From an uncultured Bacteroidia bacterium (lineage in GTDB: Bacteria; Bacteroidota; Bacteroidia; Bacteroidales; UBA932): a DNA stretch of 46,888 nt. Under the pieces are notes generated by a model. It was not told where the DNA came from, made no database searches, and saw nothing but the letters and a program-made list of their open reading frames with translations. Shown in pieces: positions 32,408-46,888 of the stretch (positions are counted from its first letter, which is position 1; the number at the start of each line of letters is the position of its first letter). The translations under genes and the position numbers were made by a program. Location: positions 1 to 46,888 of the forward strand of contig CADBPR010000106.1 in NCBI GenBank assembly GCA_902796555.1, given 5' to 3'.

Positions 32408-33486
32408 TATCTGTGGTAGTTAGGAGCCTGTTTGGCAATTACGACATCATGGGGATGGTTCTCGGCCACCCCGTTGGCCGTAATCCGGACAAAGGAAGCG
32501 CCGTGCAGGGCGGTGATGTCCGCAGCACCGCAATAGCCCATTCCGGAACGAAGGCCGCCGGCCAGCTGGTAAATCACTTCGCCGACCGCGCCTTTATACG
32601 GGGTGCGCGCCACGACGCCCTCGGGGACCAGTTTCTTGGCGTTTTTCTGGAAGTAACGGTCGGCGGAGCCGGCTTTCATCGCATCGATGGAGCCCATGCC
32701 GCGATAGCCTTTCCATTGTTTCCCGTCCGCCTCGAACACTTCGCCCGGCGCTTCGTCCGTGCCCGCGAACAGGGAGCCGCACATCACGCAGTCAGCCCCG
32801 GCCGCCAGCGCTTTCACGATGTCGCCGGAATAACGCAGGCCGCCGTCGGCAATCACGGGAACGTCACTGCCTTCCGCCGCGCAGGCCACCTCGGAGATGG
32901 CCGTCAACTGGGGAACGCCCACGCCGGCCACGATGCGGGTCGTGCAGATAGAACCCGGACCGATGCCCACCTTGAGCCCGTCCGCGCCGGCCTCAATCAG
33001 GTCGCGCGCCGCCTGCGCCGTGGCGATATTGCCGACCACGACATCGACGGAAAAAGCGGATTTGACCTTGCGCAGGGCATCCATCACGCCTTTGGAATGG
33101 CCATGGGCCGAATCCAGCACAAGAACATCTACACCGGCCTCTACCAGGGCGGCCACACGGTCCAGAATGTCTTCCGTAATCCCGACGCCGGCCGCCACCC
33201 GACAGCCTTCGGCATGGACCCGGCGCACCTGGTCGGCCTGGGAGGCAATATCCATATTCTTATGAATCACGCCGATACCGCCTTCCCGCGCCATAGCAAT
33301 CGCCATGCGGGACTCCGTCACCGTATCCATGGCGGCGGACACAAAAGGAATATCCAGGGCTACCCGGCGTGAGAACCGGGTCCGGAGAGAAACCTCCCGC
33401 GGGAGCACTTCGGAATAAGACGGGACCAGCAGGACATCATCGAACGTGAGGGCATCCGCCACCAGTCTTTGTTCCAGTGATTTCAT
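32407..33486 (-). CDS. guaB: IMP dehydrogenase lacking CBS domains
   Basis: Oxidises IMP to XMP, the rate-limiting step to GMP. Catalytic Cys181 is in GPGSICTTR, the flap is KGYRGMGS (259-266), and RTPYKG (294-299) completes the active site. The [14 protein letters not shown] segment is that of IMP dehydrogenase rather than GMP reductase. The protein has only 359 residues. The sequence passes straight from QVRRV (86-90) to [11 protein letters not shown], where about 120 residues of two CBS domains normally lie. The barrel is otherwise uninterrupted. The start at 33486 matches relatives (12 residues before LTFDDVLL); 33513 is an alternative. The frame extends to 33597, past the promoter, and is not real there. 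Confidence 0.93.
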
Positions 33487-33530
33487 CTGCAGAGCAGGCA
33501 ACAAGCGCTTCATCTTGACGTTAGTTTTTA

Positions 33531-33565: not shown

Positions 33566-35212
33566 TTACTTTCCGATGCCGAGACGCGCCTGGACAACGT
33601 TCTCTACGTAGCCCGTAAACCTCTGGCACTCAGCGATAAAGTCGGCATAAATCGTACCCTGGGCATAGGAATACTTGTGGTCGTTGACGTCCGCTATATT
33701 CTTGGTTTTCAAGTCTTCCGTATAGTACTTGATGGTGCGGCGGAAATCGTGTACTTCCACATTCGTATCCTTCAGCACGGCGTTCATCACGTCCAGGGAT
33801 TCTTTCAACATGCCGAACAGCTTTTCAACGGCCGCTTTCTGCTCGTCGTTGAAATGCTGGCCGCCCGTCTTGATCCGGTTCAGGATGCGGGCCATGCTCA
33901 GGCAGCTGTCGCCGATACTCTCCAGCTCGTTGATTTGGCGGAGCATGGAACGGATTTTGGCCTTCGTGCTGTCGCTCAAATGGGCGTCGCTCACCTCAGC
34001 GAGGTACTTGCCGATTTCGGCCTCAATCTTGTCGGACGAATCCTCCATCTTGCTCACGCGGGTCAGCAGCTCTTCGGTATCGCCTTCCAGCATTTCATGC
34101 ACGACATCCAGCATATGCGCAGTCTGTTCGGCATACAGTCCGATTTCTTTCTGGGCCTGGAGAACGGAGATTTCCGGGGTCTTCAGAATACCGCTCTGGA
34201 TGTAGGTCAGATGGAAGCCTTCATCGTCGGTCTCCTTGGGCTTGATGATGGCGCAGACCAGTTTCTCAATCTGCGGAATGAACCAGATGAGAATCAGGGT
34301 GTTGGTGACATTGAAAGCCGTATGGAAGGCCGCCAGGGCGAAGGACAGGCGGGTCGGGTCCTGGGCGTCGGCCGTCGGGTCCACGCCGACCCAGCTGCAG
34401 ACCATGTTCACGAAGGGATAGAACAGGCACAGAACCCAGAACACGCCGAACACATTGAAAAACATGTGCGACAGGGCGGCCCGGCGGGCCTGCGTATTGG
34501 CCGACATAGCGGCCAGGTTGGCTGTCACCGTCGTACCGATATTCTCGCCCATAACCAGGGCCAGGCCTTGGTAGATGGGGAGCACGCCGGTGGTGCAGAG
34601 CACCATCGTGATGGCCATCAGGGCCGCGGAAGACTGGGCCACGATGGTCAGGACGGTACCGATGAGCAGGAACAGCAGGATGGTCCAGTAGCTGCCGGTA
34701 TCGAAGGAGCCGAAGAAGTCGACGACGGCCTGGTTATGGGCCAGGTCCATTTCGCGGCCGGTGATGTTCAAGGTCCCGAGGGCGAAGAACAGGAAGGCAA
34801 CGCCGAAGATGAAGTCGCCGAGGTAGCGGCGCTTTTTGGAGGAAATCAGGATAATGGCCACCAGGAAGGCCGGCCAGACGAAGTTCGTGATATTGAAGGA
34901 GAAACCGGCCGACATAATCCACGCGGACAAGGTCGTACCGATATTGGCGCCCATAATCACGGAAATGGCCTGGGCCAGGGTCAGCAAGCCGGCGTTGACG
35001 AAGGACACTGTCATGACCGTCGTGGCAGCGGAAGACTGGACGGAAACGGTCACGAACATACCGGTCAGCAGGCCGGTAAAGCGGTTGGTCGTCATGGCCC
35101 CGAGCACATGCCGCAGCTGGGGACCGGCCATTTTCTGAAGCGCCTCGCTCATCATCTTCATACCGAAGATGAGCAGAGCGAGGGCGCCTAAAAGTTTAAA
35201 GAGTGTCAGCAT
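33566..35212 (-). CDS. Na/phosphate cotransporter with PhoU-like C-terminus
   Basis: 548 residues in two parts. The membrane domain (1-310) has the duplicated QSSAAT motif of the type II Na/Pi cotransporter family ([12 protein letters not shown] near 60; [12 protein letters not shown] near 210) with [10 protein letters not shown] and [10 protein letters not shown] repeats. The cytoplasmic part from about 345 is helical and resembles PhoU ([21 protein letters not shown]), likely sensing or gating. It imports inorganic phosphate with sodium in the family model. Its ATG overlaps the DUF5689 stop codon (TGATG), making it the last gene of the nuclease operon, which fits a route from nucleic acid to free phosphate. 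Confidence 0.9.
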
Positions 35213-36357
35213 CAGAATTTCGGTTCGTGAATAACGATATCTTCAAGCCGGTTGACCGTAATCTGAATCGTTCCCTGGTAGAGGGCCAGGACACCGGTCA
35301 CATCGACCGTCGCCTTGTGGGTCACGCCTTGGGCGTCTTCCACGCCGTACAGAACGGAATCCGGAATCACGGTGTCGGCAAACTTGGCATAGCCGCTGGT
35401 CCGGATGACCACCTCGGTACTGCCCTTGAGGAAGTACTGGCTGACTGTTGCTGCCGTCGCCGTGGAACGAATGCTTTCTTTGTTGTCGGGGTCGGCCACG
35501 GTGCCGTAGTTGTAGTCACCGGCATTGCCGATGCTCACCTCGTCGAAGAGCCCCTTGTCCAGGTATTCGATGAACTTGTTCTTGCTCATCGCCCAGGTAT
35601 TCACGCCGAAGGTCTGGTCCGAGAGGAACACCCGGTTGCGGGAATCCTTGTGGTTGGCATTGCTGTCGACATAGACCAGGGTAAAAATTTCGTCGTTATA
35701 AACCAAACCTTTGATGGTCACCAGTTTACCGATAGCGGAATTGTCCGCGAGGGTGGACAGGCGGCCGGGGAGGTCTGCTTCTTCCAGCACCACCGGGGTC
35801 ACTTTTTCCTGGATTTCGCCGCGGTAGATATGCTCGTTCACGATGGTCGTCGCATCCAGGTAGGAGGTTTCATACTCGGGCTCCGTGCCGGGCAGGTACT
35901 CGTATTGGTAACCAATCTGGACCATGCCGCTGCCGCCGGAAGGGCCGTCGTCATAGTTCTTGAGGTCCTTGTAGCCATACTCACCCAGGGTCAGGCCGGC
36001 CATCTTGACATAAATCATCTGGCCTTCCTTGTAGTCGGAATAGAGGCTGGTTTTGCCGATTTTGACCTCCATGCCGCCGGTCTCGTCCTGGATATAGAAA
36101 CTCTTGTAGAAGTTACCGGTCTGGTCGGAAGAGGAAATCCGGCCGCCGACGACCACGTCGCTTTCATATCCGAAGGTAATCGGATTGCCGTGCACGTACA
36201 TGGCGGCCAGTTCTTTCAAGGTCATGGTGGGCTCCATCGCGACCGTTTCATACGTCGCGGGAGCATCGTATTTTGTCGTAAAGACCGGCTGCCACTCGTC
36301 GCGGCAGGACACCAGCGCCGCCGCAGCGGCCAAGATGCAGAATAACTTGTTTCTCAT
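35212..36357 (-). CDS. DUF5689 lipoprotein
   Basis: 381 residues. The lipobox is LVSCR (Cys18). The mature protein starts with a short acidic/aromatic stretch, then has OB-fold-like segments (ISSSDQTGNFYKSFYIQDETGGMEVKIG and a second one near VYNDEIFTLVYVDSNANHKDSRNRVFLSDQ), the pattern of DUF5689 proteins next to TonB receptors and EEP nucleases in Bacteroidales. OB-like folds bind nucleic acids or oligosaccharides, which suits the neighbours, but binding is not demonstrated. It lies 4 bases after the TonB receptor gene and overlaps the phosphate transporter gene by one base. Confidence 0.85.
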   Translation of the reverse strand: MRNKLFCILAAAAALVSCRDEWQPVFTTKYDAPATYETVAMEPTMTLKELAAMYVHGNPITFGYESDVVVGGRISSSDQTGNFYKSFYIQDETGGMEVKIGKTSLYSDYKEGQMIYVKMAGLTLGEYGYKDLKNYDDGPSGGSGMVQIGYQYEYLPGTEPEYETSYLDATTIVNEHIYRGEIQEKVTPVVLEEADLPGRLSTLADNSAIGKLVTIKGLVYNDEIFTLVYVDSNANHKDSRNRVFLSDQTFGVNTWAMSKNKFIEYLDKGLFDEVSIGNAGDYNYGTVADPDNKESIRSTATAATVSQYFLKGSTEVVIRTSGYAKFADTVIPDSVLYGVEDAQGVTHKATVDVTGVLALYQGTIQITVNRLEDIVIHEPKF

Positions 36358-36361
36358 GGCC

Positions 36362-39316
36362 TTAGAATCTGAAATAAATATTCAACATGTAATTGAAACC
36401 GCTCATATAGAAGTACTTGGGATCGAACTTGTAAAACTGCACCTCATTCTGGGTGTTGTCCACGATACGGTTCTGTTCGAAACCGCCCGTACGCACATTC
36501 TTGTTGTTGAGCAGGTTCTTGGCATTCAGCGAGAAGCCCAGCTGGTATTTCCGGCGGATGTACCAAGACTTACCCACGTTCACGTTCAGCAGGAAAGCGG
36601 GGTCGAATCTCTCCTGGCCCGCCATGTATTCGACTTCCAGCGGAGAGACCGTACCGTCGGCACCGGCGGAGACGGCATCCATCCGGAACAAGGGGTTCAT
36701 CGCCAGGTAGGAGTTGGCGAAATAGTCGGCGCTCACATCGATGAACCAGTAGTTGTGGTTCCAGGCCAGGCCGAGGCTGGTGGCGAACTGCGGCGTGGAA
36801 GGCACATAGTGTTTCTGGTGATAGTCCAGCACGTAGTTGCCCTGGGCGTCGATATCATACCAGCCTTCCGCATCATGCTTGTAGACCGGATGGCTCATCC
36901 AGTAGGGCACGATTTCGTCTTCGATGACGACGGCCGAGCTGTTGTCCACCGTCTGGGTCAGACGCGGATTGGAGGTATAGATGTATTCACCCCAGGCCAG
37001 GACGCCCTGAACGGACAGGCCGGTCAGACCGGTCGGCACCTTGAAGCCGAGTTCGATACCCATGTTGCGCTGGTCGATACCGGTGAGGGCGAAGTTCGTG
37101 AAGGCATTCTGGAGGTCGTCATAGACGCTCATCACGTCGGACTGGTCCTTGATGGTGGTGTAGTAGGCCGTGGCGCGGACATTGAATCCGCCCGTGGACA
37201 ACTGGTAGTTGATATCCGTCGAGAAGGTCTTCGACGTGGTCAGGCCCTTCATCAAGGTGTTGCGCATACGCGGGGAGATGAAGGACTTGTTGAAGGTCGG
37301 AGCGTCGGTCAGATAGGCCACGTTCGCATAGACGCGGGAGTGACCGCCAATCAGGTATTCCAGGTTGGCTTTGGCCGTATAGGTGAAGAACTTGGCCGTC
37401 TTGGACTTGCCGTAAGAAGAAATCACTTCGCCGGTCAGGGCATCATAGCTGGTGAGGTTGACACCGGAAACCGGGTCAATAATCTCGTTCCCGCTGTCCC
37501 ACACGCCGGCAAAGAGACCGTTGCGCATCAAGCCGTCGCGCCAGAAAGCCGTATAGCCGAGCTTGCCGGCCACGGTGGCGCTGAAACGGCCCGTGGCAAA
37601 GCGGCCGCTCGCCCAGAGGTTGTACTGACGGACCTGGGCCAGGTAGTCATAGCCGTATTTGTCACCGAGGCCCAGCACTTTGGCCTTGCCGTTGGCGAAG
37701 TAGTAGTCCAGGTCGTTCTGGTAACGGGCTTCCTGGGCCGCGAAGTCGCGCTCTGCGAAGTTGTTGGTATTGAGGTAGTAGTCACCGCCCAGCAGGTCCG
37801 CGACAATCTTGTAATACTCCGTCCGGTTGATGCGGGCGTTCAGGCCGCCGTTCAGCGTGAAGCTGTCCACCGGACGCCATTTGGCCGACAGCGCCAGGTT
37901 GAAGTCGCGCTGGTCGACACGCCGCTCTTCCTGGATATATTTGGAACGGGCTTTGCCGGAAGCATCCCGGTTGAAGCGGTTCACATTATAGAGGCGGTCC
38001 CAGTTAATCTGGGTAATGGAAGGGTCGCGCATCACGGACCAGGAATCCTCCACCCAGGCCGCTTTGATTTCGCTGTAGCGCTGCAGGTCTTCGTTGTCAT
38101 ACATGAAGTAGCTCGGAAGATTGCGGTAGTAGTCCGGCTTCGGGTCGGCCGCATCGTTCCAGTCCAGGGCCGTATAGCCGTTCTTGCCGAAACGGTACAG
38201 GACGGTGGCGCTGGCCGAGAAGCGTTCGGTCGGGGTGAAGTCGTATTTCAACACGGCAATCGGCTCATGGGTCTTGCGGACGCGGGCGTTGCGCACCTTG
38301 CCGTTCTGGTAACCCCAGTTCGGATTGTACATGTTGTCGCCCATGAGGTCGTAGACTTCCTGGGTAGCCGCCATCTGAGCGCCCCGCTCGCCAGGGGCCG
38401 CCATGAACAGGGCACTCAGCTTGTGGGTTTCGTCAAACTTCTTTTCAACCGAGCCGTAATAGGCGAAAGAACGGTAGTAAACACCTTTAATCCAGTCGTT
38501 TCCGCCCAGACGCGTCGATACGTTGAAGGCGTAGGACCAGCCGTTGTCCAGGGGACCGGACGCATAGGAGAGCATCAGGCGGAGGCGGTACAGGGCACTG
38601 TTGGTCAGCACGCTGCCGCGCCATCCCTTGCGGACATAGGAGGCCGTTCCGGGGATGTTGGTCACACCGTTCACGCCGCCGACACCGTAGTCGGACGCTT
38701 CCGAGCCGCTGGTGCTCATTTTGGTACGGGTCGCCTCGTTCAGGCCGCTCCACAGGGAGAAGGGACCGTAGCCGGTCAGTGCGTCGTTCATCTTGACGCC
38801 GGCCAGGTAGACTTCCTGGGATTCGTTCGCCAGACCGCGGACGCGGAAACGGACGTTGCTGAAGTTGTACCCTGCGATGTTGCTGAATATATCGTTCTGT
38901 CCGAAGAGAACGGTCGGGTTGTCATTGTAACCGCCGCCGTCCGGGTCGAACTCCGCCAGGTCGTCGGCATCCGCGACGGACACCATCTTGGCCTGGGTCA
39001 TGGACAGGTTGAACATATTCTTGACATAGCCGTCCACGACGGTCACGTTGACCCGGGTCTGGAGGAATTCAGGCGCCTCGATGACCAGGTCATACATCCC
39101 GTCTTTCAGGCCTTCCACCAGGAAGTTACCGTCCTGGTCCGCCGTAGCGGACGCTACCAGGACAGCCCCTTGATAGAGATTCAGGGTCGCACCCGCAACA
39201 GGTTCCCTGTCGGCACGGTTGATTACCGTACCCTTGACTCCACCCGTATATTCCTGAGCCATCAGGTCCAGGGAGCAGAGCAAGGCGGCAATCGCCAGAG
39301 TTAGTTTTTTTGACAT
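36362..39316 (-). CDS. TonB-dependent receptor with carboxypeptidase-like N-domain
   Basis: 984 residues. After a signal peptide ending in LMAQ comes a CarboxypepD_reg-like domain at about 25-105 (GTVINRADREPVAGATLNLYQG), then a plug with VRFRVRGLANESQEVYLAGVKMNDALTG, and a barrel ending in YFRF. It is not of the SusC type, because the SusC plug signature and a SusD partner are both missing. Placed between an EEP phosphatase/nuclease gene and DUF5689, it probably imports the products of surface nuclease action. This is context inference only. Confidence 0.92.
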   Translation of the reverse strand: MSKKLTLAIAALLCSLDLMAQEYTGGVKGTVINRADREPVAGATLNLYQGAVLVASATADQDGNFLVEGLKDGMYDLVIEAPEFLQTRVNVTVVDGYVKNMFNLSMTQAKMVSVADADDLAEFDPDGGGYNDNPTVLFGQNDIFSNIAGYNFSNVRFRVRGLANESQEVYLAGVKMNDALTGYGPFSLWSGLNEATRTKMSTSGSEASDYGVGGVNGVTNIPGTASYVRKGWRGSVLTNSALYRLRLMLSYASGPLDNGWSYAFNVSTRLGGNDWIKGVYYRSFAYYGSVEKKFDETHKLSALFMAAPGERGAQMAATQEVYDLMGDNMYNPNWGYQNGKVRNARVRKTHEPIAVLKYDFTPTERFSASATVLYRFGKNGYTALDWNDAADPKPDYYRNLPSYFMYDNEDLQRYSEIKAAWVEDSWSVMRDPSITQINWDRLYNVNRFNRDASGKARSKYIQEERRVDQRDFNLALSAKWRPVDSFTLNGGLNARINRTEYYKIVADLLGGDYYLNTNNFAERDFAAQEARYQNDLDYYFANGKAKVLGLGDKYGYDYLAQVRQYNLWASGRFATGRFSATVAGKLGYTAFWRDGLMRNGLFAGVWDSGNEIIDPVSGVNLTSYDALTGEVISSYGKSKTAKFFTYTAKANLEYLIGGHSRVYANVAYLTDAPTFNKSFISPRMRNTLMKGLTTSKTFSTDINYQLSTGGFNVRATAYYTTIKDQSDVMSVYDDLQNAFTNFALTGIDQRNMGIELGFKVPTGLTGLSVQGVLAWGEYIYTSNPRLTQTVDNSSAVVIEDEIVPYWMSHPVYKHDAEGWYDIDAQGNYVLDYHQKHYVPSTPQFATSLGLAWNHNYWFIDVSADYFANSYLAMNPLFRMDAVSAGADGTVSPLEVEYMAGQERFDPAFLLNVNVGKSWYIRRKYQLGFSLNAKNLLNNKNVRTGGFEQNRIVDNTQNEVQFYKFDPKYFYMSGFNYMLNIYFRF

Positions 39317-39331
39317 ATCTTGAGTTGTTGT

Positions 39332-40402
39332 TTACTGGTTGCTGACGACGATGTACGTCGGAAAATGGTCGCTGTAGCCGTTGATGAAGGTACCGTTGGA
39401 GAAGGTACGCTTCGGCTGGTCTTTGTACTGGCCTTCGTCCTGCACCATGAAGGGCTTCTTGAAAATGCGGCCGTAGTACTTGTTCTTCACAATCGGGACA
39501 ATCCGCAGGGTGCCGGCCGGGGCCTTCGCCAGGAACTCGTTCACGATGAGGATATCATAGATATTCCATTCGCCGCGATAGGCCAGGGAGCCGTAACCGG
39601 CATGGAGCATGGAAACGAACGGAGAGAAGAAATCGCCTTCCGCCACGTCCTCGATGAACTCCTTGCCATGCATATAGACGGCCATGGACGGGTCGGTGGG
39701 GTTGTCGTTCATATCGCCCATCGCCACAATCTTGATACCGGGATATTCCTTCATCAGTTCGCAGGAGGCCTCATACATGATTTCACCGCCGCGGCTGCGC
39801 AGGTCCATGCCTTTGCCGCCGATACGGGACGGAAGGTGAGCCACGAAGAAGGCGAACATTTCGCCGCCGAGCAGGCCGCGGACCATGAGGATGTCACGGG
39901 TGCGGAAATTCTCCTGCTCCTCTTTGCTCATGTCAAACGTAATCGCGTCGCTGTCAAAATTGTACGGAAGGGAACGGCTCTCCAGGACCTGGAACTGGTC
40001 CGGACGGTAGAGCAGGGCCACATCCACGCCGCGGCGGTCGGGACCGTCGTAGTGGATAATCTGGTAATTGGCTTCGGCAATGGCCGGCTGGCTCACCAGG
40101 TCTTCGAGCACGTGGCGGTTTTCGATTTCGCTGACGCCCAGAATCGTGTGCCACACCTTGTTCTCGTCCTTCATCGCACGGATGACCTTAGCCATGTTGT
40201 AGAGCTTCTTCTCATATTTGGCATCGGTCCATTCGTTGGCGCCTTCCGGGAGATATTCGTAGTCATTCTTACCGTCGTCATGGTAGGTGTCGAAGAGGTT
40301 CTCCAGGTTGTAGAACCCGATGACATAACTCCGTTTCGGTCCGGCGAAGGACAGCGGAGCGGCCATCAAGGCGAGCAGGAGGATGAGTGCTATTCTTTTC
40401 AT
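39332..40402 (-). CDS. Secreted endonuclease/exonuclease/phosphatase (EEP) family protein
   Basis: 356 residues with a signal peptide of about 20 (ends LSFA). The DNase I-like metal-dependent phosphoesterase core is complete: FYNLENLFD (metal Asn/Asp), SEIENRHVL (Glu), RRGVDVALLY, HLPSR (catalytic His), GDMNDNPTD (Asp/Asn) and the terminal YSDHFP (Asp-His). It could cleave nucleic acid or hydrolyse phosphate esters; family members do both. It lies between the NUC1-type nuclease gene (18 bases) and the TonB receptor gene (15 bases). No lipobox, so it is periplasmic or secreted. Confidence 0.92.
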   Translation of the reverse strand: MKRIALILLLALMAAPLSFAGPKRSYVIGFYNLENLFDTYHDDGKNDYEYLPEGANEWTDAKYEKKLYNMAKVIRAMKDENKVWHTILGVSEIENRHVLEDLVSQPAIAEANYQIIHYDGPDRRGVDVALLYRPDQFQVLESRSLPYNFDSDAITFDMSKEEQENFRTRDILMVRGLLGGEMFAFFVAHLPSRIGGKGMDLRSRGGEIMYEASCELMKEYPGIKIVAMGDMNDNPTDPSMAVYMHGKEFIEDVAEGDFFSPFVSMLHAGYGSLAYRGEWNIYDILIVNEFLAKAPAGTLRIVPIVKNKYYGRIFKKPFMVQDEGQYKDQPKRTFSNGTFINGYSDHFPTYIVVSNQ

Positions 40403-40420
40403 TTTCCGTTGGTTTTCATA

Positions 40421-41683
40421 TTACCACCATAGATTGAGCGAAGCCACCGGTTTTTTCGGGTCTTCCGCTTCTATCTTGTCAGCCAGATTCTGTCCGACTT
40501 GGTCGGGCAGGTTGGCGAAAAGGTCGATTCCGATTTTCTTTTCCAGGTCGTCGATGCTGCAGAACAAATCCTTGCCGAGCGTCACGCTGCCGTAGTCCTT
40601 GTGGTCCAGCCAGATAGCCAGGCCACTGAATCCGCCGTAGCCGACGGTGGCGGTCCTGGCATGGCGGAGGATGGCCTTGTAATAACCGACCGGCACCGTG
40701 GAGGAAACGCCGTTGACGCGGCTGGACGATTTCTGGGAACTGCCTTTGACCATACAGCCCGTCACCACATAACAGGTGTCAGCGCCGGCCATCCGGGACC
40801 AGTCACGCATCCGCATTTCGAGCGATGCCCAGATACCGCCGTTGAATTCGTGGAGCTGGGGCGTCATGTTCGAGGCATAATAGGTCTGGGCATTGCCGTC
40901 GCCGACATAGCGGTCGGCGGAGGCAATCTGATGGCCGCGGCCGTAGATTCCGGAATTGGAATACGGTTCCGACAGGTCGGGCTGCCGGATACCGGCCTTC
41001 TGCAGCAGCGGGTCCATCGCCCAGGGTTCCGGATTGGGGCGGCTGCCCGAACCAATCAGGCTGCCGTTCATCGGATAGGCCACCCAGATGGAAACGCAGT
41101 CGGACTTGCTCCAGTAGAAGGAGTAATTCCGTTTGCGCACGCCGGTCACGGTCATGTAATGCGTGAAGAAGGCATACCCGTCGCCCAGGTCCGTCTGAGG
41201 CAGTTCGAGCCACCCGCCGGCGGTCATGGCCGGCGTGCCAGGGGTCTCCGGGTCGTCACTTTCGTCCACGCCGGCGCCCGGGTCGATACCGCTCTGGATA
41301 AAGGTCACATTGCTCATCTTGGAGCCGCTGCGGATGGTCAGGATGGCTTTGCGCGAAGCGGCGGCCGGATTGGGGTCACAGGTAAGGGCAACGGAGGAGG
41401 TGCTGCCTTCTCCGGAGACCGTGGCGCTGCGCTCCGCACCGTTTCTGAATCCGACCCAGTCGACCTGCTCACCGTTGAAGGTGATGCTGATGGTCCAGGA
41501 CGCGGAAGCCGTGACAGTGAGGAACTGGGTCCCGCCCTCCTGCTTTTCAGGATTGCGCTTGAAGCCCAGCTCCGGAACGATGGCCAGGTCGTCGGTCCCT
41601 GTTCCCGAGCAAGAAACGGCTGCCGGCAGCAGCGCCAGAAGCGCCGCCGCCATCGCCGCGAATATGTTGCTGCGCAGGTTCAC
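40421..41683 (-). CDS. BACON-domain DNA/RNA non-specific endonuclease (NUC1 family)
   Basis: A 420-residue lipoprotein (Cys25 in VSCSG) with a BACON domain at about 35-132 and a beta-beta-alpha-metal nuclease domain at about 155-420. Residues of the Serratia-nuclease active site are all present: Arg249 and His251 in RGHQIAS, Asn272 in SNMTPQ, Asn281 in FNGGIW and Glu289 in LE. The canonical DRGH begins with Gly248 instead of Asp. Cuts DNA and RNA without sequence preference, here presumably at the cell surface. The GTG start codon follows the upstream TAA directly (taaGTG), with no ATG nearby. Confidence 0.9.
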   Translation of the reverse strand: MNLRSNIFAAMAAALLALLPAAVSCSGTGTDDLAIVPELGFKRNPEKQEGGTQFLTVTASASWTISITFNGEQVDWVGFRNGAERSATVSGEGSTSSVALTCDPNPAAASRKAILTIRSGSKMSNVTFIQSGIDPGAGVDESDDPETPGTPAMTAGGWLELPQTDLGDGYAFFTHYMTVTGVRKRNYSFYWSKSDCVSIWVAYPMNGSLIGSGSRPNPEPWAMDPLLQKAGIRQPDLSEPYSNSGIYGRGHQIASADRYVGDGNAQTYYASNMTPQLHEFNGGIWASLEMRMRDWSRMAGADTCYVVTGCMVKGSSQKSSSRVNGVSSTVPVGYYKAILRHARTATVGYGGFSGLAIWLDHKDYGSVTLGKDLFCSIDDLEKKIGIDLFANLPDQVGQNLADKIEAEDPKKPVASLNLWW

Positions 41684-44600
41684 TTACTGGATATTAATCT
41701 GTTTGAAACAGAACTGTCCGGAAGTCTTCTTGTCGTTGGAGCCGAAGTCGTTGGAAGCACCTACCGTAAAGGTAACTTCCTGGGCCTGACCCGTCCAGGT
41801 AATAACCGTGTCCCCTTTCTTCTGCGCGACTACGCTGCCTGCAGAAGCCGTAATGGTGGCCGTCTGCTCCAGGCCTTTGCCCGACAGGGTAAAGGCGATG
41901 CCGTTCATGGTTTGTCCGGCGGGAGCGGTCACCGTAATCTTGCCGTTGGCATACATACGGATGTCTTCCTCCTGGGTACTTCCGTTAACCTTATAGATGG
42001 GTTTGGTCTGGCTGGCGCTACCATCGATGACGAAGGTATAACCCTGATATTCAAATTCCGAGACCGGGTCGTTGTCCTTCCACTGGTTCAGCTTGGCCAG
42101 CTCGGTGACCGTAATCGCCATGCCGTTCACCGGGTCGGTGGAGACGTCCGGATCCTGGGAATTGTCAGGGTCCTGGGAATCATCCGGGGCGGGATCCTGG
42201 GAATTGTCAGGATTCGTGTTGCCGCCTTCGCCGCTGTACACCTTCAGGTTGCGGATCTCCCATGTGGCGGCTGCTGCATCGGTGCTGGTGTAGACAAAGG
42301 CCAGGTAGATTTGTTCGCCGGCGAAATCGCTGAGATCAACCGCACCGGAAGAAACGAAGTTCCAGTCGCTGCCGGTGAACCAGTTGGGAATGTCGAGTTC
42401 AAACCACTCTTCCCCGTCCACGGATACGCAGACAAAGACCACTTCGCTCTTTTCCTGGCCTGCAGGGAAATACTGGCCGGTATGCTCAAAGGTCAGGAAG
42501 GCGGACTGAACATTGCTCAGGTCGATGGGGTCGGCCTTGTACAGCCAGGCCTCGGTCGCATAGGCTTTCTGGTAGTAGGCGGAAGCCTTCATGCACTGAT
42601 CCTGCTGGCGGTAAGACCATACATAGCTCAAGCCGGTGGGCAGTTCGCCGTTGTCAATGGTGAAGGAGCCCTCGCCCGTAGCGAAACTTTCTTCGAAAAT
42701 CAGTTCGCCGTCCACGGGCACCGGGTCATCGGAGAATCCGGGGTCCTCGCTCTGGTCCGGCGTGCCGCCCTGGGTGCCCAGATCGACGCCGCGGCCGAAG
42801 TCCACGGACTGGGAAGTGGCCGAAGCCGTCTCGCTGACCAGCGTCAGGTCGTCCAGACGGTAAGCGCTGGCCACGGAAGCGGTGAAGTACAGGTACAGGG
42901 TCTGGGTACCCTGCGGAACGGTGAAATGCGCCGTTGCCAGATCCCAACGACCGTTGGGCATGGTACCCTTGGCAAAATCATAATCGAGAGACACCCAGCT
43001 GGCACCGGTTCCGGTGTTGCTCACATAAACCTTGAACTCGTCCTTGTTGAACAGAGCATCGGCCTGGGTATACTTTTCGGTACCGAAACTCAGGGCGAAC
43101 GCCGTCGCACCGTCGGTTGCGATATTCTTGACATTCACATAGTTGTTGGCGCCGAAGAAGAGGTTGTTGGCTCCGGAACCGGCATAATCGGAATACGTGC
43201 CGTTGGAGGCGCTGTTCGCACGGACCGTGATGCCGGCGACGGCATAGTCCACATTGGCCGCACCGCTGCCGTTCTGATTCTTCCAACCGTCGAACTGGTC
43301 GGCGAAGGGCCAATGTTTGTTAGCATCCTGGGCAGCCGTGGTCTTGTCGAAGTTGTTCGCATATACGGTTCCAGCCGGTGCCGGGTCCTGGGAGGTATCG
43401 GGGTCCTCGCTCTGGTCCGAACCGCCACCCTGGGTGCCCAGATCGACGCCCTTGCTGAAATCGACAGCCGTACCGGCCTTTTCGGCGGCGGCGAGGGTCA
43501 GGTCATCCAGACGATAGGCGCTGGCAACGGAGGCTGCGATATAGATATACAGTTTGGAGGTACCGGAAGGAACGGTGAAATTGGCGGTAGCCAGGTCCCA
43601 TTTGCCCTCGGGGAGGCCGCCCTGCGCGAAGTCATAGTCGATGGAAACCCAGGTGGCGCCTTCGCCCGTGTTGCTGACGTAGACTTTGAATTCGTCCTTG
43701 TTGAACTTGGAATCAGCCTGCGTGTATTTCTCGCTGCCGAAGGTCAGGCTCAGGTTCGTAGCATCGCCAAGGGCGATGTTCTGCACCTGGAAGTGGGCGT
43801 TGGCACCGAAGAAGATGTTGTTGGCGCCGGATCCGGAATAGATGGAATAGTTTCCGTTGGAGGCGCTGTTCGCACGGATGGAGATACCGGTGAATTCGTA
43901 AGTGACATTCGCCGCACCACTGCCGGTGGGGTTCTTCCAGTTCTCGAACTGGTCGCCATAGGGCCAGCTGCTGCCGGAACCATAGGTCTGGGTAGCCGTT
44001 TCCTTGTCGAAATTGTCGGCGTAGATGGCGCCTTCGACCGGGGTCGGGCCCACAGGGTCGGTGCTGCCGTCACCGCTGCCCTGCTTCTCCGTCGAAACGG
44101 TGAGCGCATCCACTTCCCAGGTACCGGCCTTGGAAGCCGTGGACTTGTAGATGAAGGCGAAGCGGACGGTCTTGCCCTTATAGGCGGAAATGTCGATATC
44201 GCCGGAATTGACGAAGGTCCAGTTGGTCGGATAGGTAGGAATGGTCAGCTGCGTCCACTCCTCCTCACCGTCCGCCTTGGTTGCGGAATCGGAAATCCAG
44301 AAAGTAGCCTCATCCTTGATATTGCCGAAATACTGACCGGCGTGGGTGAAGGAGACATAGTTGGTCTCCGTGTCGGCCAGTTCGATGGCGGGCGACACCA
44401 GCCAGCTCTCGGAAGCGTAGTTGGTTCCGCCTGCATAGGCGGTCGCCTTCATGCCATACTTGGAGTCATACGTCCACACGGCGTCGATTCCCTCGGGGAG
44501 GGTTCGGTCCTCGATGGTCCAGGAACCCTGACCGGCGGTCTTGAGGCTGTAATCGTAATACTTGCCGGAAATGGGGGCTTCCCCTTCGGGGCCGTCCTGA

Positions 44601-44944
44601 TAGATGACATAGGCCCGGCTGATCAGTTTCTTGCCGACGACGAAGTTGACGGTACCGGTACGGTTGTACCCGTCGTTCGGCAGTACGGAAATCTCAATCG
44701 TCTGCGGCTTGACGGAGCCCTGGCCGGAGGTCTTGGTAATACCGATCCAGTCGTCTTCCGTGGTCGCGGTCCAGTCGCGGGATACCGTCACGTTGATGTT
44801 GGCGACACCCCCGTCCTTGTCGAAGGTGAGACTCTGCTGCCCGAAAGCGATTGAGGGGATGCCGAGATTCTCACGCTCCCGCTGACAGCCCGTCAGCACG
44901 GCGGCTGCAGCCAGCAGGGAGAGAAAAATGGTTCTGAATTTCAT
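41684..44944 (-). CDS. Multi-domain BACON / jelly-roll surface lipoprotein
   Basis: 1086 residues. Lipobox LTGCQ (about residue 19), a BACON domain to about 120, then a choice-of-anchor-J-type beta-sandwich (YDYSLKTAGQGSWTIEDRTLPEG...), two tandem DUF5017-like sandwich repeats (about 304-740), another anchor-J-like domain, an acidic linker of repeated SQDP units, and a final beta domain. No catalytic motif is seen. It looks like a surface adhesin or scaffold that captures substrate for the nucleases encoded after it. The ATG at 44944 gives a clean lipoprotein signal and lies 50 bases after a consensus promoter; the frame runs 35 codons further upstream but through that promoter. First gene of the operon. 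Confidence 0.85.
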   Translation of the reverse strand: MKFRTIFLSLLAAAAVLTGCQRERENLGIPSIAFGQQSLTFDKDGGVANINVTVSRDWTATTEDDWIGITKTSGQGSVKPQTIEISVLPNDGYNRTGTVNFVVGKKLISRAYVIYQDGPEGEAPISGKYYDYSLKTAGQGSWTIEDRTLPEGIDAVWTYDSKYGMKATAYAGGTNYASESWLVSPAIELADTETNYVSFTHAGQYFGNIKDEATFWISDSATKADGEEEWTQLTIPTYPTNWTFVNSGDIDISAYKGKTVRFAFIYKSTASKAGTWEVDALTVSTEKQGSGDGSTDPVGPTPVEGAIYADNFDKETATQTYGSGSSWPYGDQFENWKNPTGSGAANVTYEFTGISIRANSASNGNYSIYSGSGANNIFFGANAHFQVQNIALGDATNLSLTFGSEKYTQADSKFNKDEFKVYVSNTGEGATWVSIDYDFAQGGLPEGKWDLATANFTVPSGTSKLYIYIAASVASAYRLDDLTLAAAEKAGTAVDFSKGVDLGTQGGGSDQSEDPDTSQDPAPAGTVYANNFDKTTAAQDANKHWPFADQFDGWKNQNGSGAANVDYAVAGITVRANSASNGTYSDYAGSGANNLFFGANNYVNVKNIATDGATAFALSFGTEKYTQADALFNKDEFKVYVSNTGTGASWVSLDYDFAKGTMPNGRWDLATAHFTVPQGTQTLYLYFTASVASAYRLDDLTLVSETASATSQSVDFGRGVDLGTQGGTPDQSEDPGFSDDPVPVDGELIFEESFATGEGSFTIDNGELPTGLSYVWSYRQQDQCMKASAYYQKAYATEAWLYKADPIDLSNVQSAFLTFEHTGQYFPAGQEKSEVVFVCVSVDGEEWFELDIPNWFTGSDWNFVSSGAVDLSDFAGEQIYLAFVYTSTDAAAATWEIRNLKVYSGEGGNTNPDNSQDPAPDDSQDPDNSQDPDVSTDPVNGMAITVTELAKLNQWKDNDPVSEFEYQGYTFVIDGSASQTKPIYKVNGSTQEEDIRMYANGKITVTAPAGQTMNGIAFTLSGKGLEQTATITASAGSVVAQKKGDTVITWTGQAQEVTFTVGASNDFGSNDKKTSGQFCFKQINIQ
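42722..43381 (-). repeat. Tandem domain repeat, copy 2 (within the surface lipoprotein)
   Basis: Encodes a sandwich domain of about 220 residues that starts TVYANNFDKTT and ends near QSEDPGFSDDP. It closely matches copy 1 directly upstream on the - strand, with identical blocks such as NKDEFKVYVSNTG, SVASAYRLDDLTL and GVDLGTQGG, so the gene grew by tandem duplication. Confidence 0.8.
43382..44037 (-). repeat. Tandem domain repeat, copy 1 (within the surface lipoprotein)
   Basis: The first copy of the duplicated sandwich domain, starting GAIYADNFDKET and ending in SEDPDTSQDP. The two copies differ mostly in surface loops (for example TQTYGSGSSW against AQDANKHW). Confidence 0.8.
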
Positions 44945-44993
44945 TACTGTAGTTATTAATGTTATAAATTTATTGGCATAATCCACCATCCTG

Positions 44994-45024
44994 CAAAGAT
45001 AGCAAAAACAAATGGCATATTCAA
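44994..45024 (-). promoter_or_regulatory. Consensus promoter of the nuclease/phosphate operon
   Basis: On the - strand TTG (45022-45024), exactly 20 bases, then TATCTTTG (44994-45001), a perfect match to the Bacteroidetes consensus. The leader to the ATG at 44944 is about 45 bases and A/T-rich. I see no Pho-box repeat around it. The six genes from 44944 to 33566 are all on this strand with gaps of 18 bases or less. Confidence 0.85.
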
Positions 45025-45058: not shown

Positions 45059-45091
45059 AGAAAAAAAACAGCCCGGCGGGTGCCGGGCTGT
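45059..45091 (-). terminator. Rho-independent terminator after the partial TonB receptor gene
   Basis: Read on the - strand: acagcccggc / gccgggctgt, a 10-bp perfect stem with a 4-base loop, followed by a run of T. It lies 25 bases after the stop codon at 45116 and separates that gene from the nuclease operon. Confidence 0.93.
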
Positions 45092-45115
45092 CAGTAGGTA
45101 TGTTTCTTCTCGGAA

Positions 45116-46888
45116 TTAGAAGCTGTACCGGGCGGTCAGCAGCATGTTCCAAGTAGAGAAGGTGCTCTTGTAAGGCTTCCAGGTAGGCTCGGTGAAAGTA
45201 TACGTACCAGCCTTGCTGTCCCAGTTGAGAATCTGGTCGCCGCTCAGCTGCTTGGGAACGCCCCAGTTGCTGTTGAACAGGTTGCCGATGTTGTTGATAT
45301 CCACACCGACGGTGAGGGTATGGACCTTCTTGCCGACATGGAACATGATATCCTGTGCAACCTTGACGTTGATGCGGTTGACCCAAGGCATCACGGCACC
45401 GCCGCGCTCGGAATACTGACCGCGGTGCGCGCTCAGGTACTTGTCGCTGGCGAGGAAGGCCTGGAAAGCGGCCTTGTTGTCAGCTGCAGTCTGGATTACA
45501 TTCTCGTCCTTGTCCTTCACATCGCCGAAAGGCATGGAAGCGAGGTCGGTATCCGTCGGGATGTAAACGAGGTTGGCAGCACCGCCGTCGCCCGTCACGT
45601 TGTTGAGGGTGTAGGAGTAGCGGGTGTAGGAGTAGTTGCCGATGTAGCCGAGGTTGAAGCCCTCATAGAACACACCGAGGGTGGTGGCGAGGAAGCGGCC
45701 TTCCGGAATGCGGTAGCCCACGTTCGCAATCACACGGTGAGGAGATACATAGGTGCCGTAGCCCAGTTCCGGGGTGTGGCTGCCGTTGACGTTGTAGGTC
45801 ATCGTGTTGTAAGCGGAGGAAATCTGGTCGCCGATACCGTCGGAGAGGGCCTTGCCGCCGCTGTAGGTGTAAGCCGCCATAAGGGACAGGCCGAAGGCGA
45901 AGTCCTTCTCGAGTTTGGCCGTACCGGAGTAGTAGTAACCCAGGTTCTTGTCTACATTGTAGATGTAGTACGGCAAAACTTTACCGCCCAGGGAGTTCTT
46001 GATGTTTTCGCCGGAGACTTTGGCACGGCCTGCAGGCTCGCCGGGGAGGGTCACCTCGCCGTCTGCTTTCTGGCCGAGCTTGTCAACATAGACACCGATG
46101 AGGTCCTTGTTGTAGATACCTTCGAGGGAGGCGCGGATGCCGCCGGGGAGACGGAAGTCGGCCGCCAGGGAGGTCTTCAGGGTCGTAGGCATGATCAGGT
46201 TCTTGTCCATGACGGTGGTACCCGTAGGAGCGTACAGGTCACCGGCCTTGAAGGTACCGCCGTAGAGGTCGTCGAGGATGTCGGTGACATTCTGGTGGAA
46301 GTTCGGGGTGTTGGCGTTGCCTTCACGGGCGTCGACGAACTGGGCCTGGAGGCAGTTGCTGTTACCCGCGGCGGACACAATCCACACGAAGGGGATACGG
46401 CCGGTGTAGATACCGGCGCCGCCACGCAGGACGACGGCACGGTTGCCGAAGAGGTCCCAGTTGAAACCGATTCTCGGGGAAATGTTCGTGCGGGAAGCAG
46501 GCATGTCGGAGGTCTTGTGACCATAGAGAGACGTGCCGGCGGTGGCCAGGCTGGTGAATTCCTTGTTCTCGTTACCCGGGATATTCGGATAAATCGGGAG
46601 TTCGAAACGGATACCGGCGGTCAGTTTGAAGCGGTCGCTGAAGGTCACCTCATCCTGGGCATACCAGGAAGCCTGCATATACTGGAAGGCCGGGAACACC
46701 TGCTTGAGGTCGTCACGGTTGGAGTGGGTGATGGCGAAAGCGGCGGGTTTGCCGGCAGCCTTGAACGCATCCCAGCTGTCATAGATATAGTAGCCGAGGC
46801 CACCCTGCATGAAACCGTTCTTGGTGTCGTTCCACTCGAACTGCAGACCGGCAGTCACGTTGTGGATACCGAAGCGGTAGTTGATTTC
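45116..46888 (-). CDS. TonB-dependent receptor, C-terminal part (partial)
   Basis: 590 residues of the barrel of a TonB-dependent or Oar-like outer-membrane protein, with the start beyond the window edge; the frame is open to the last base. Aromatic barrel strands alternate throughout (SWYAQDEVTFSDRFKLTAGIRFELP, NISPRIGFNWDLFGNRAVVLRGGAGIYTG), and the last strand ends in Phe (LLTARYSF), the outer-membrane insertion signal. Strands such as TLTVGVDINNIGNLFNSNWG are typical of the large carboxypeptidase-domain receptors of Bacteroidetes. It has its own terminator and is not part of the nuclease operon. Substrate unknown. Confidence 0.88.
   Translation of the reverse strand, partial: EINYRFGIHNVTAGLQFEWNDTKNGFMQGGLGYYIYDSWDAFKAAGKPAAFAITHSNRDDLKQVFPAFQYMQASWYAQDEVTFSDRFKLTAGIRFELPIYPNIPGNENKEFTSLATAGTSLYGHKTSDMPASRTNISPRIGFNWDLFGNRAVVLRGGAGIYTGRIPFVWIVSAAGNSNCLQAQFVDAREGNANTPNFHQNVTDILDDLYGGTFKAGDLYAPTGTTVMDKNLIMPTTLKTSLAADFRLPGGIRASLEGIYNKDLIGVYVDKLGQKADGEVTLPGEPAGRAKVSGENIKNSLGGKVLPYYIYNVDKNLGYYYSGTAKLEKDFAFGLSLMAAYTYSGGKALSDGIGDQISSAYNTMTYNVNGSHTPELGYGTYVSPHRVIANVGYRIPEGRFLATTLGVFYEGFNLGYIGNYSYTRYSYTLNNVTGDGGAANLVYIPTDTDLASMPFGDVKDKDENVIQTAADNKAAFQAFLASDKYLSAHRGQYSERGGAVMPWVNRINVKVAQDIMFHVGKKVHTLTVGVDINNIGNLFNSNWGVPKQLSGDQILNWDSKAGTYTFTEPTWKPYKSTFSTWNMLLTARYSF

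Follow-up and report, generated by a model that had tools for sequence, protein, structure and literature searches.

A five-gene Bacteroidales unit that couples two predicted secreted nucleases to orthologues of a Riemerella transformation pair, a probable DNA-import operon

Gene content of the locus

We analysed a DNA stretch of 46,888 nucleotides (the window; contig CADBPR010000106.1 of assembly GCA_902796555.1) from an uncultured Bacteroidia bacterium of the Bacteroidales lineage UBA932, whose genome comprises 2.13 Mb in 107 contigs and is 83% complete. It carries six tightly packed minus-strand genes that encode, in transcription order, a large lipoprotein, a DNA/RNA non-specific endonuclease (NUC1), an Exo_endo_phos_3 nuclease/phosphatase (EEP), a TonB-dependent receptor (TBDR), a DUF5689 lipoprotein and a Na/phosphate cotransporter (Table 1). 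A first-pass annotation had read these as one candidate operon for digesting extracellular nucleic acid coupled to phosphate uptake. The open reading frame (ORF) listing bore out the packing, with gaps of 0, 18, 15 and 4 bases between the first five genes and a one-base overlap between the DUF5689 and cotransporter genes. We found that the first five genes form a conserved unit, which is probably an operon for TonB-driven DNA import, of a type first revealed by genetics in Riemerella anatipestifer, with two nucleases packaged alongside the importer.

Table 1. Features of the locus in window coordinates; domains are from Pfam and NCBIfam scans, with signal peptides and lipoboxes judged by eye
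Feature	Coordinates	Strand	Basis
Large lipoprotein, 1086 aa, N-terminal BACON + choice-of-anchor J	41684..44944	-	Pfam/NCBIfam
BACON-NUC1 lipoprotein, DNA/RNA non-specific endonuclease	40421..41683	-	PF01223 E 4e-30
Secreted EEP (Exo_endo_phos_3) nuclease/phosphatase	39332..40402	-	PF19580 E 8e-89
TonB-dependent outer-membrane transporter, RA0C_RS04915 orthologue	36362..39316	-	Profile + predicted fold
DUF5689 lipoprotein, OB-like predicted fold, RA0C_RS04920 orthologue	35212..36357	-	Pfam, alignment, model
Na/Pi cotransporter + PhoU domain (Na_Pi_cotrans + PhoU)	33566..35212	-	Pfam/NCBIfam
Promoter-like site TTG-N20-TATCTTTG, Bacteroides -33/-7 type	44994..45024	-	Pattern match
Intrinsic-terminator-like site, strong	45067..45092	-	11 pairs, 8 G-C, then T run

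Both nucleases are well supported as family members. The NUC1 protein matches Endonuclease_NS, with a weak BACON match, and aligns to Anabaena NucA (2o3b/1zm8) across the catalytic domain. Residues R215, R249, H251, N281, E289 and R293, which we take to be catalytic, are invariant in 20/20 aligned sequences. The first-pass annotation had credited this protein with all five active-site residues. The six above are kept, but the Asp of the usual DRGH motif is not: residue 248 (window 40940-40942, minus strand) is Gly. This position is Asp in 11 of the 20 aligned proteins, Ala in five, Ser in three and Gly in the window. With its profile match and the retained R, R, H, N, E and R, the protein is a predicted secreted nuclease. 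In the EEP, N32, E94, H189, D230, N232, D345 and H346 are likewise invariant in 20/20 aligned sequences and presumably serve metal binding or catalysis; its signal peptide agrees with the earlier description of a secreted enzyme. The same genome encodes a second Exo_endo_phos_3 protein elsewhere (G000:C92:10199-11080, L002).

The TBDR matched a CarboxypepD_reg domain and no TonB plug or barrel model in Pfam. Nevertheless, its predicted fold is that of a TonB-dependent transporter (TBDT) with plug and beta-barrel (PqqU 9c4o, E 2e-22; SusC 5fq8, E 1e-18), in agreement with the earlier assignment; the best fold matches were PqqU, Fiu and OprC. The lipoprotein behind it, earlier said to contain OB-like segments, gave a DUF5689 match and a weak OB match in Pfam. 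Its model (pLDDT 87) was closest in Foldseek to the archaeal RPA structure 8aaj (E 4e-5), followed among PDB entries by an RPA-DNA filament and HIN domains on double-stranded DNA, and thus weakly resembles OB-fold DNA binders. The large protein at the head of the unit has a lipobox, as expected of the surface lipoprotein proposed earlier, and is a putative surface DNA binder. The window's own copy contains BACON and choice_anch_J only. Across 31 scanned proteins of this slot (the window's copy and 30 of 38 listed relatives), BACON occurred in 28, a tRNA_anti-codon OB domain in 16 and DUF5689 in five. The earlier identification of the sixth product as a cotransporter with a PhoU-like tail was also correct.

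Conservation of the unit and the place of the cotransporter

EEP relatives were found in 283/299 genomes of the family at E 1e-20. Within the genus, 59 of 62 genomes gave a strong match (E 3e-130 or better) and the other three weak matches only; some of the weak matches in the family are likely a second EEP. We fetched 40 regions, 20 from the genus and 20 from other genera, choosing mostly among high-scoring EEP matches, so this sample leans towards the operon. NUC1, EEP and TBDR were contiguous in 39/40, the exception (L071) being a lone EEP, and DUF5689 came next in 38 of the 39 regions whose contig reached that far. In addition, we took from a named collection the best 80 of at least 585 TBDR relatives. 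These close relatives are metagenome-assembled Bacteroidales, chiefly from rumen and gut, with 5/80 listed as Candidatus Cryptobacteroides. Among testable loci of this set, the TBDR had an EEP nearby in 77/78, NUC1 in 75/75 and DUF5689 in 77/77; at the single miss (L092) an EEP lies 0.7 kb further off. The conserved unit thus has five slots: BACON lipoprotein, NUC1, EEP, TBDR and DUF5689. Two loci from other genera of the family (L065 and L066) carry a second EEP gene directly behind DUF5689.

The cotransporter behaved differently. It followed DUF5689 in only 1/71 testable named-collection loci, that of a sister species (L074), where it sits 18 bases behind. The gene itself is common, being present in 56/61 genus genomes. 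In the 27 genomes covered by both searches, the window's own copy is linked to the unit, 22 have it apart from their best EEP and four lack a match. In all 22 comparable genus genomes it lies on another contig, save one in which the two share a contig some 200 kb apart. No cotransporter was found in any of 60 TBDR stretches drawn across the phylum. It is therefore a neighbour and not a conserved member, probably by chance: a widespread gene that sits beside the unit in the window's species and L074. Hence the six genes do not form a single conserved unit. The six-gene order that the first-pass annotation proposed looking for across Bacteroidales persisted in five slots and broke down at the cotransporter, and the coupling to phosphate uptake is unsupported since the gene adjoins the unit in so few loci and lies elsewhere in 22/22 genomes.

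A locus that scavenges phosphate from nucleic acid, with the cotransporter as a functional member, is accordingly improbable. It would account for the one-base overlap and for the arrangement in L074, and the NUC1 and EEP families do act on phosphate esters. Beyond the counts above, which run against it, another close relative (L073) has an opposite-strand gene after DUF5689, and an M3-family peptidase gene, for no obvious reason, lies within 4.5 kb downstream of the unit in 58/71 testable loci (e.g. L033:14467-16488). Removing phosphate has also been reported to lower transformation in R. anatipestifer (PMC8383284).

We also searched beyond the family. A TBDR profile matched 145/294 genomes of the order at E 1e-60 (89/179 genera) and 40/247 genomes of a phylum draw at E 1e-40. 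Of the 60 phylum-wide loci that we chose, 40 came from the order matches, most of them with high scores, and 20 from the 37 class-level ones. DUF5689 adjoined the TBDR in 57/60 and EEP in 47/58 testable loci (45 divergent, two co-directional), while NUC1 lay within 8 kb in 5/60, in various arrangements. It therefore looks as if EEP-TBDR-DUF5689 is an old triad to which NUC1 and the BACON lipoprotein were added in the window's family and in L153, L154, L155, L173 and L188. In L155 and L173, both of one family of the order (f82), TBDR-DUF5689 is followed by a lipoprotein with a weak, BACON-like match to the NUC1 profile and then by NUC1, so that the parts recur in another arrangement. Surface nucleases degrade extracellular DNA (eDNA) in other bacteria, and the unit could be imagined as a shield against incoming DNA or phage, or as a remodeller of the eDNA matrix, with the TBDR incidental. 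We consider this highly improbable: TBDR-DUF5689 is the most conserved part of the phylum-wide loci and NUC1 the least, and no PADLOC model matched any of the six proteins at E 0.001.

A single consensus promoter had been proposed ahead of the unit. The pattern TTG-N20-TAnnTTTG, based on what we take to be the Bacteroides -33/-7 consensus, is present at the site in Table 1 and occurs four times in the window against 0.12 expected, with the spacer fixed after the site had been seen. A stricter form (TTTG-N18..22-TAnnTTTG) did not match there and gave a single window match elsewhere (0.25 expected), and a sigma-70 scan listed nothing at the site. The large lipoprotein probably starts at 44944 and not at the longer ORF start, because the promoter-like site falls inside the longer ORF. 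The terminator-like site closes an upstream outer-membrane beta-barrel gene (OMP_b-brl_4; 45116-46888, minus strand, truncated by the contig end) and so parts it from the unit. On the other side, an IMP dehydrogenase gene (32410-33513, minus strand) encodes 368 aa that cover the full catalytic profile, with no CBS domain; in one relative (L093) two IMP dehydrogenase halves lie about 400 bases apart, as if a regulatory insert had been lost in the window's lineage.

Relationship to the Riemerella transformation proteins

A transposon screen in R. anatipestifer identified RA0C_RS04915 (PF13620, outer membrane) and RA0C_RS04920 (DUF5689), and markerless deletion of either gene abolished natural transformation (5e-5 in the wild type, with a detection limit of about 4e-10; Huang et al. 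2021, PMC8459023). Uptake of this type also involves a periplasmic helix-hairpin-helix protein, RA0C_RS02645. Mutants in tonBA and tonBB showed decreased transformation (PMC8383284). Using a published comEC primer, we found a matching Riemerella sequence in 2/320 genomes and examined this region in each. There, recA (by eye) is followed by four genes, comEC (PF03772), two further genes, EEP, TBDR and DUF5689, an order that fits the tags RS04870, RS04895, RS04910, RS04915 and RS04920 one by one.

The window's TBDR is 28% identical to RA0C_RS04915 over the full length. Its profile has a single strong match in the genome of Riemerella (537 bits, against 52 for the runner-up) and likewise in that of Flavobacterium johnsoniae (570 bits, against 110), the latter genome being inferred from a gldH primer. 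The window's DUF5689 protein is 36% identical to RA0C_RS04920 over 135 residues and its EEP 30% identical to RA0C_RS04910 (170 bits), and the Riemerella proteins fall in the same Pfam families as their window counterparts. Judged by these alignments, the window's TBDR and DUF5689 protein are orthologues of the two proteins essential for transformation, a connection that the first-pass annotation, made from sequence alone, could not have known. Huang et al. (PMC8459023) state both that such homologues occur widely among Bacteroidetes and that those of RS04915 were found only in Flavobacteriaceae. The TBDR profile matches half of the Bacteroidales genomes drawn here. In the results and discussion of that paper, RA0C_RS04910 is named only once, as an upstream gene, and its nuclease family is not discussed.

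The two loci share the TBDR gene followed by that for the DUF5689 lipoprotein, in the same order and with an EEP homologue adjoining. They differ in that the Riemerella EEP gene is divergent, whereas EEP, NUC1 and the large lipoprotein are co-directional with the TBDR in the window. In the Riemerella sequence examined, about 15 kb ahead of the TBDR and 12 kb past DUF5689, neither NUC1 nor the cotransporter was matched. DUF5017 matched weakly at the C-terminus of RS04920 and was unmatched in the window's DUF5689 protein. In one Riemerella genome (L225, 4995-8432, minus strand), a gene for a 1145-aa protein that appears Cas9-like by eye lies, with likely Cas1 and Cas2 genes, about 1.4 kb or more behind the DUF5689 gene.

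Proposed function and known systems

The first-pass annotation was right that the unit concerns extracellular nucleic acid, as two predicted secreted nucleases, a TonB importer and OB-like surface lipoproteins attest; a real nucleic-acid operon was seen and the wrong partner assigned to it, so that observation and interpretation hold in part. We propose the following scheme. The BACON lipoprotein and the OB-like DUF5689 protein would hold extracellular DNA at the cell surface, where the NUC1 lipoprotein would nick or cut it. TonB energy would then open the TBDR and let DNA pass the outer membrane, and the secreted EEP, probably periplasmic, would trim it to ends, single strands or nucleotides. 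Once inside, the DNA may be handed to ComEC and DprA, leading to transformation, or broken down as food. We infer that DNA passes through the TBDR and that the lipoproteins bind it, and likewise what each nuclease does and what becomes of the DNA in the window's species. Both ComEC and DprA are encoded in the window's genome; however, ComEC is detectable in 285/294 genomes of the order, so its presence is weak evidence.

Several observations weigh against this proposal. The TBDR occurs in 7/9 order genomes without detectable ComEC, compared with 138/285 that have it. This fits a role in feeding, although some ComEC losses may be assembly gaps, and because of it gene transfer and feeding are not separated. 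F. johnsoniae keeps the TBDR and DUF5689 with no neighbouring EEP in the 16 kb read. One study, which reports type IV pilus homologues in this species as well, saw no transformation of it (PMC7965970). RS04910 is absent from the reported hits of the Riemerella transposon screen (PMC8459023). Furthermore, the effect of phosphate removal noted above bears on the DNA importer as well, and the lowered transformation of the tonB mutants was ascribed, for tonBB, to iron (PMC8383284).

It is possible, if not the reading we favour, that the same importer serves feeding only: extracellular DNA or RNA would be cut and imported to supply nucleosides, carbon, nitrogen and phosphorus, and the importer would play no part in gene transfer in this lineage. 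The presence of two nucleases within one operon, the persistence of the TBDR in genomes lacking detectable ComEC and a logic like that of polysaccharide utilisation loci all suit such a role, as does an Endonuclease I (PF04231) in 2/68 scanned neighbour proteins of 106 listed at the phylum-wide loci. Its main difficulty is that Riemerella does not transform without the orthologues (PMC8459023); the ComEC and DprA of the window's own genome also count against it, though ComEC, for the reason given, says little.

TBDTs usually carry small ligands, and the fold matches of the TBDR model are to PqqU, Fiu and OprC. It is conceivable that the TBDR imports some other requirement for competence, such as a metal, nucleotide or peptide, and that the transformation defect is indirect; an iron chelator cuts Riemerella transformation about 100-fold (PMC8383284). 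We regard this as unlikely, since the genes linked to it encode predicted nucleases and OB-like proteins, and loss of the TBDR or DUF5689 protein was complete in effect where transformation of tonBA and tonBB mutants is reported as decreased (PMC8459023, PMC8383284).

The Riemerella study reported essential proteins together with a model that is no more than speculative, and it called the protein converting double- to single-stranded DNA unidentified (PMC8459023). More tentatively, TBDR and DUF5689 could make up the TonB-driven DNA importer in the outer membrane across the whole phylum Bacteroidota, and EEP could be the missing nuclease that readies DNA for ComEC. Rumen and gut relatives of Cryptobacteroides would have a full surface machine with a DNA-entry nuclease and OB-fold DNA catchers, and natural transformation may therefore be common in gut Bacteroidales. 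The locus offers a concrete parts list of two candidate nucleases, a TonB channel and an OB-like protein to catch DNA, which many uncultured bacteria of the rumen and gut keep side by side. This opens direct tests of DNA import, gene transfer in the gut and DNA as a nutrient.

Among known systems, EndA of Streptococcus pneumoniae is a DNA-entry nuclease, non-specific and of the DRGH type, that serves transformation; its likeness to the window's NUC1 is an analogy only. The phosphate utilisation systems (PUS) of Flavobacterium (Lidbury et al. 2020, PMC8115612) also combine TonB transporters with phosphodiesterases. They differ from the window's unit, where the cotransporter is not conserved and no PusD/SusD match was found in the six proteins, those next to the transporter included (Pfam/NCBIfam). 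The low-phosphate-induced TBDT of F. johnsoniae is Fjoh_3841 (PMC8115612, Table 1). The F. johnsoniae orthologue of our TBDR lies at 1.32 Mb and is therefore, by estimated position, neither Fjoh_3841 nor near Fjoh_0074. The analogy with SusCD polysaccharide utilisation loci drawn in the first-pass annotation holds in outline: in both, one operon combines a TonB transporter with lipoproteins at the surface and secreted hydrolases. No SusD (E 0.001) or glycoside hydrolase family was detected in the six proteins by Pfam/NCBIfam, and the likely substrate here is nucleic acid. Taken together, the unit is best read as serving DNA import: its core is orthologous to the pair of Riemerella transformation proteins, to which two predicted secreted nucleases and a large surface lipoprotein are added, making it a variant of the little-known machine that genetics first brought to light in that genus.

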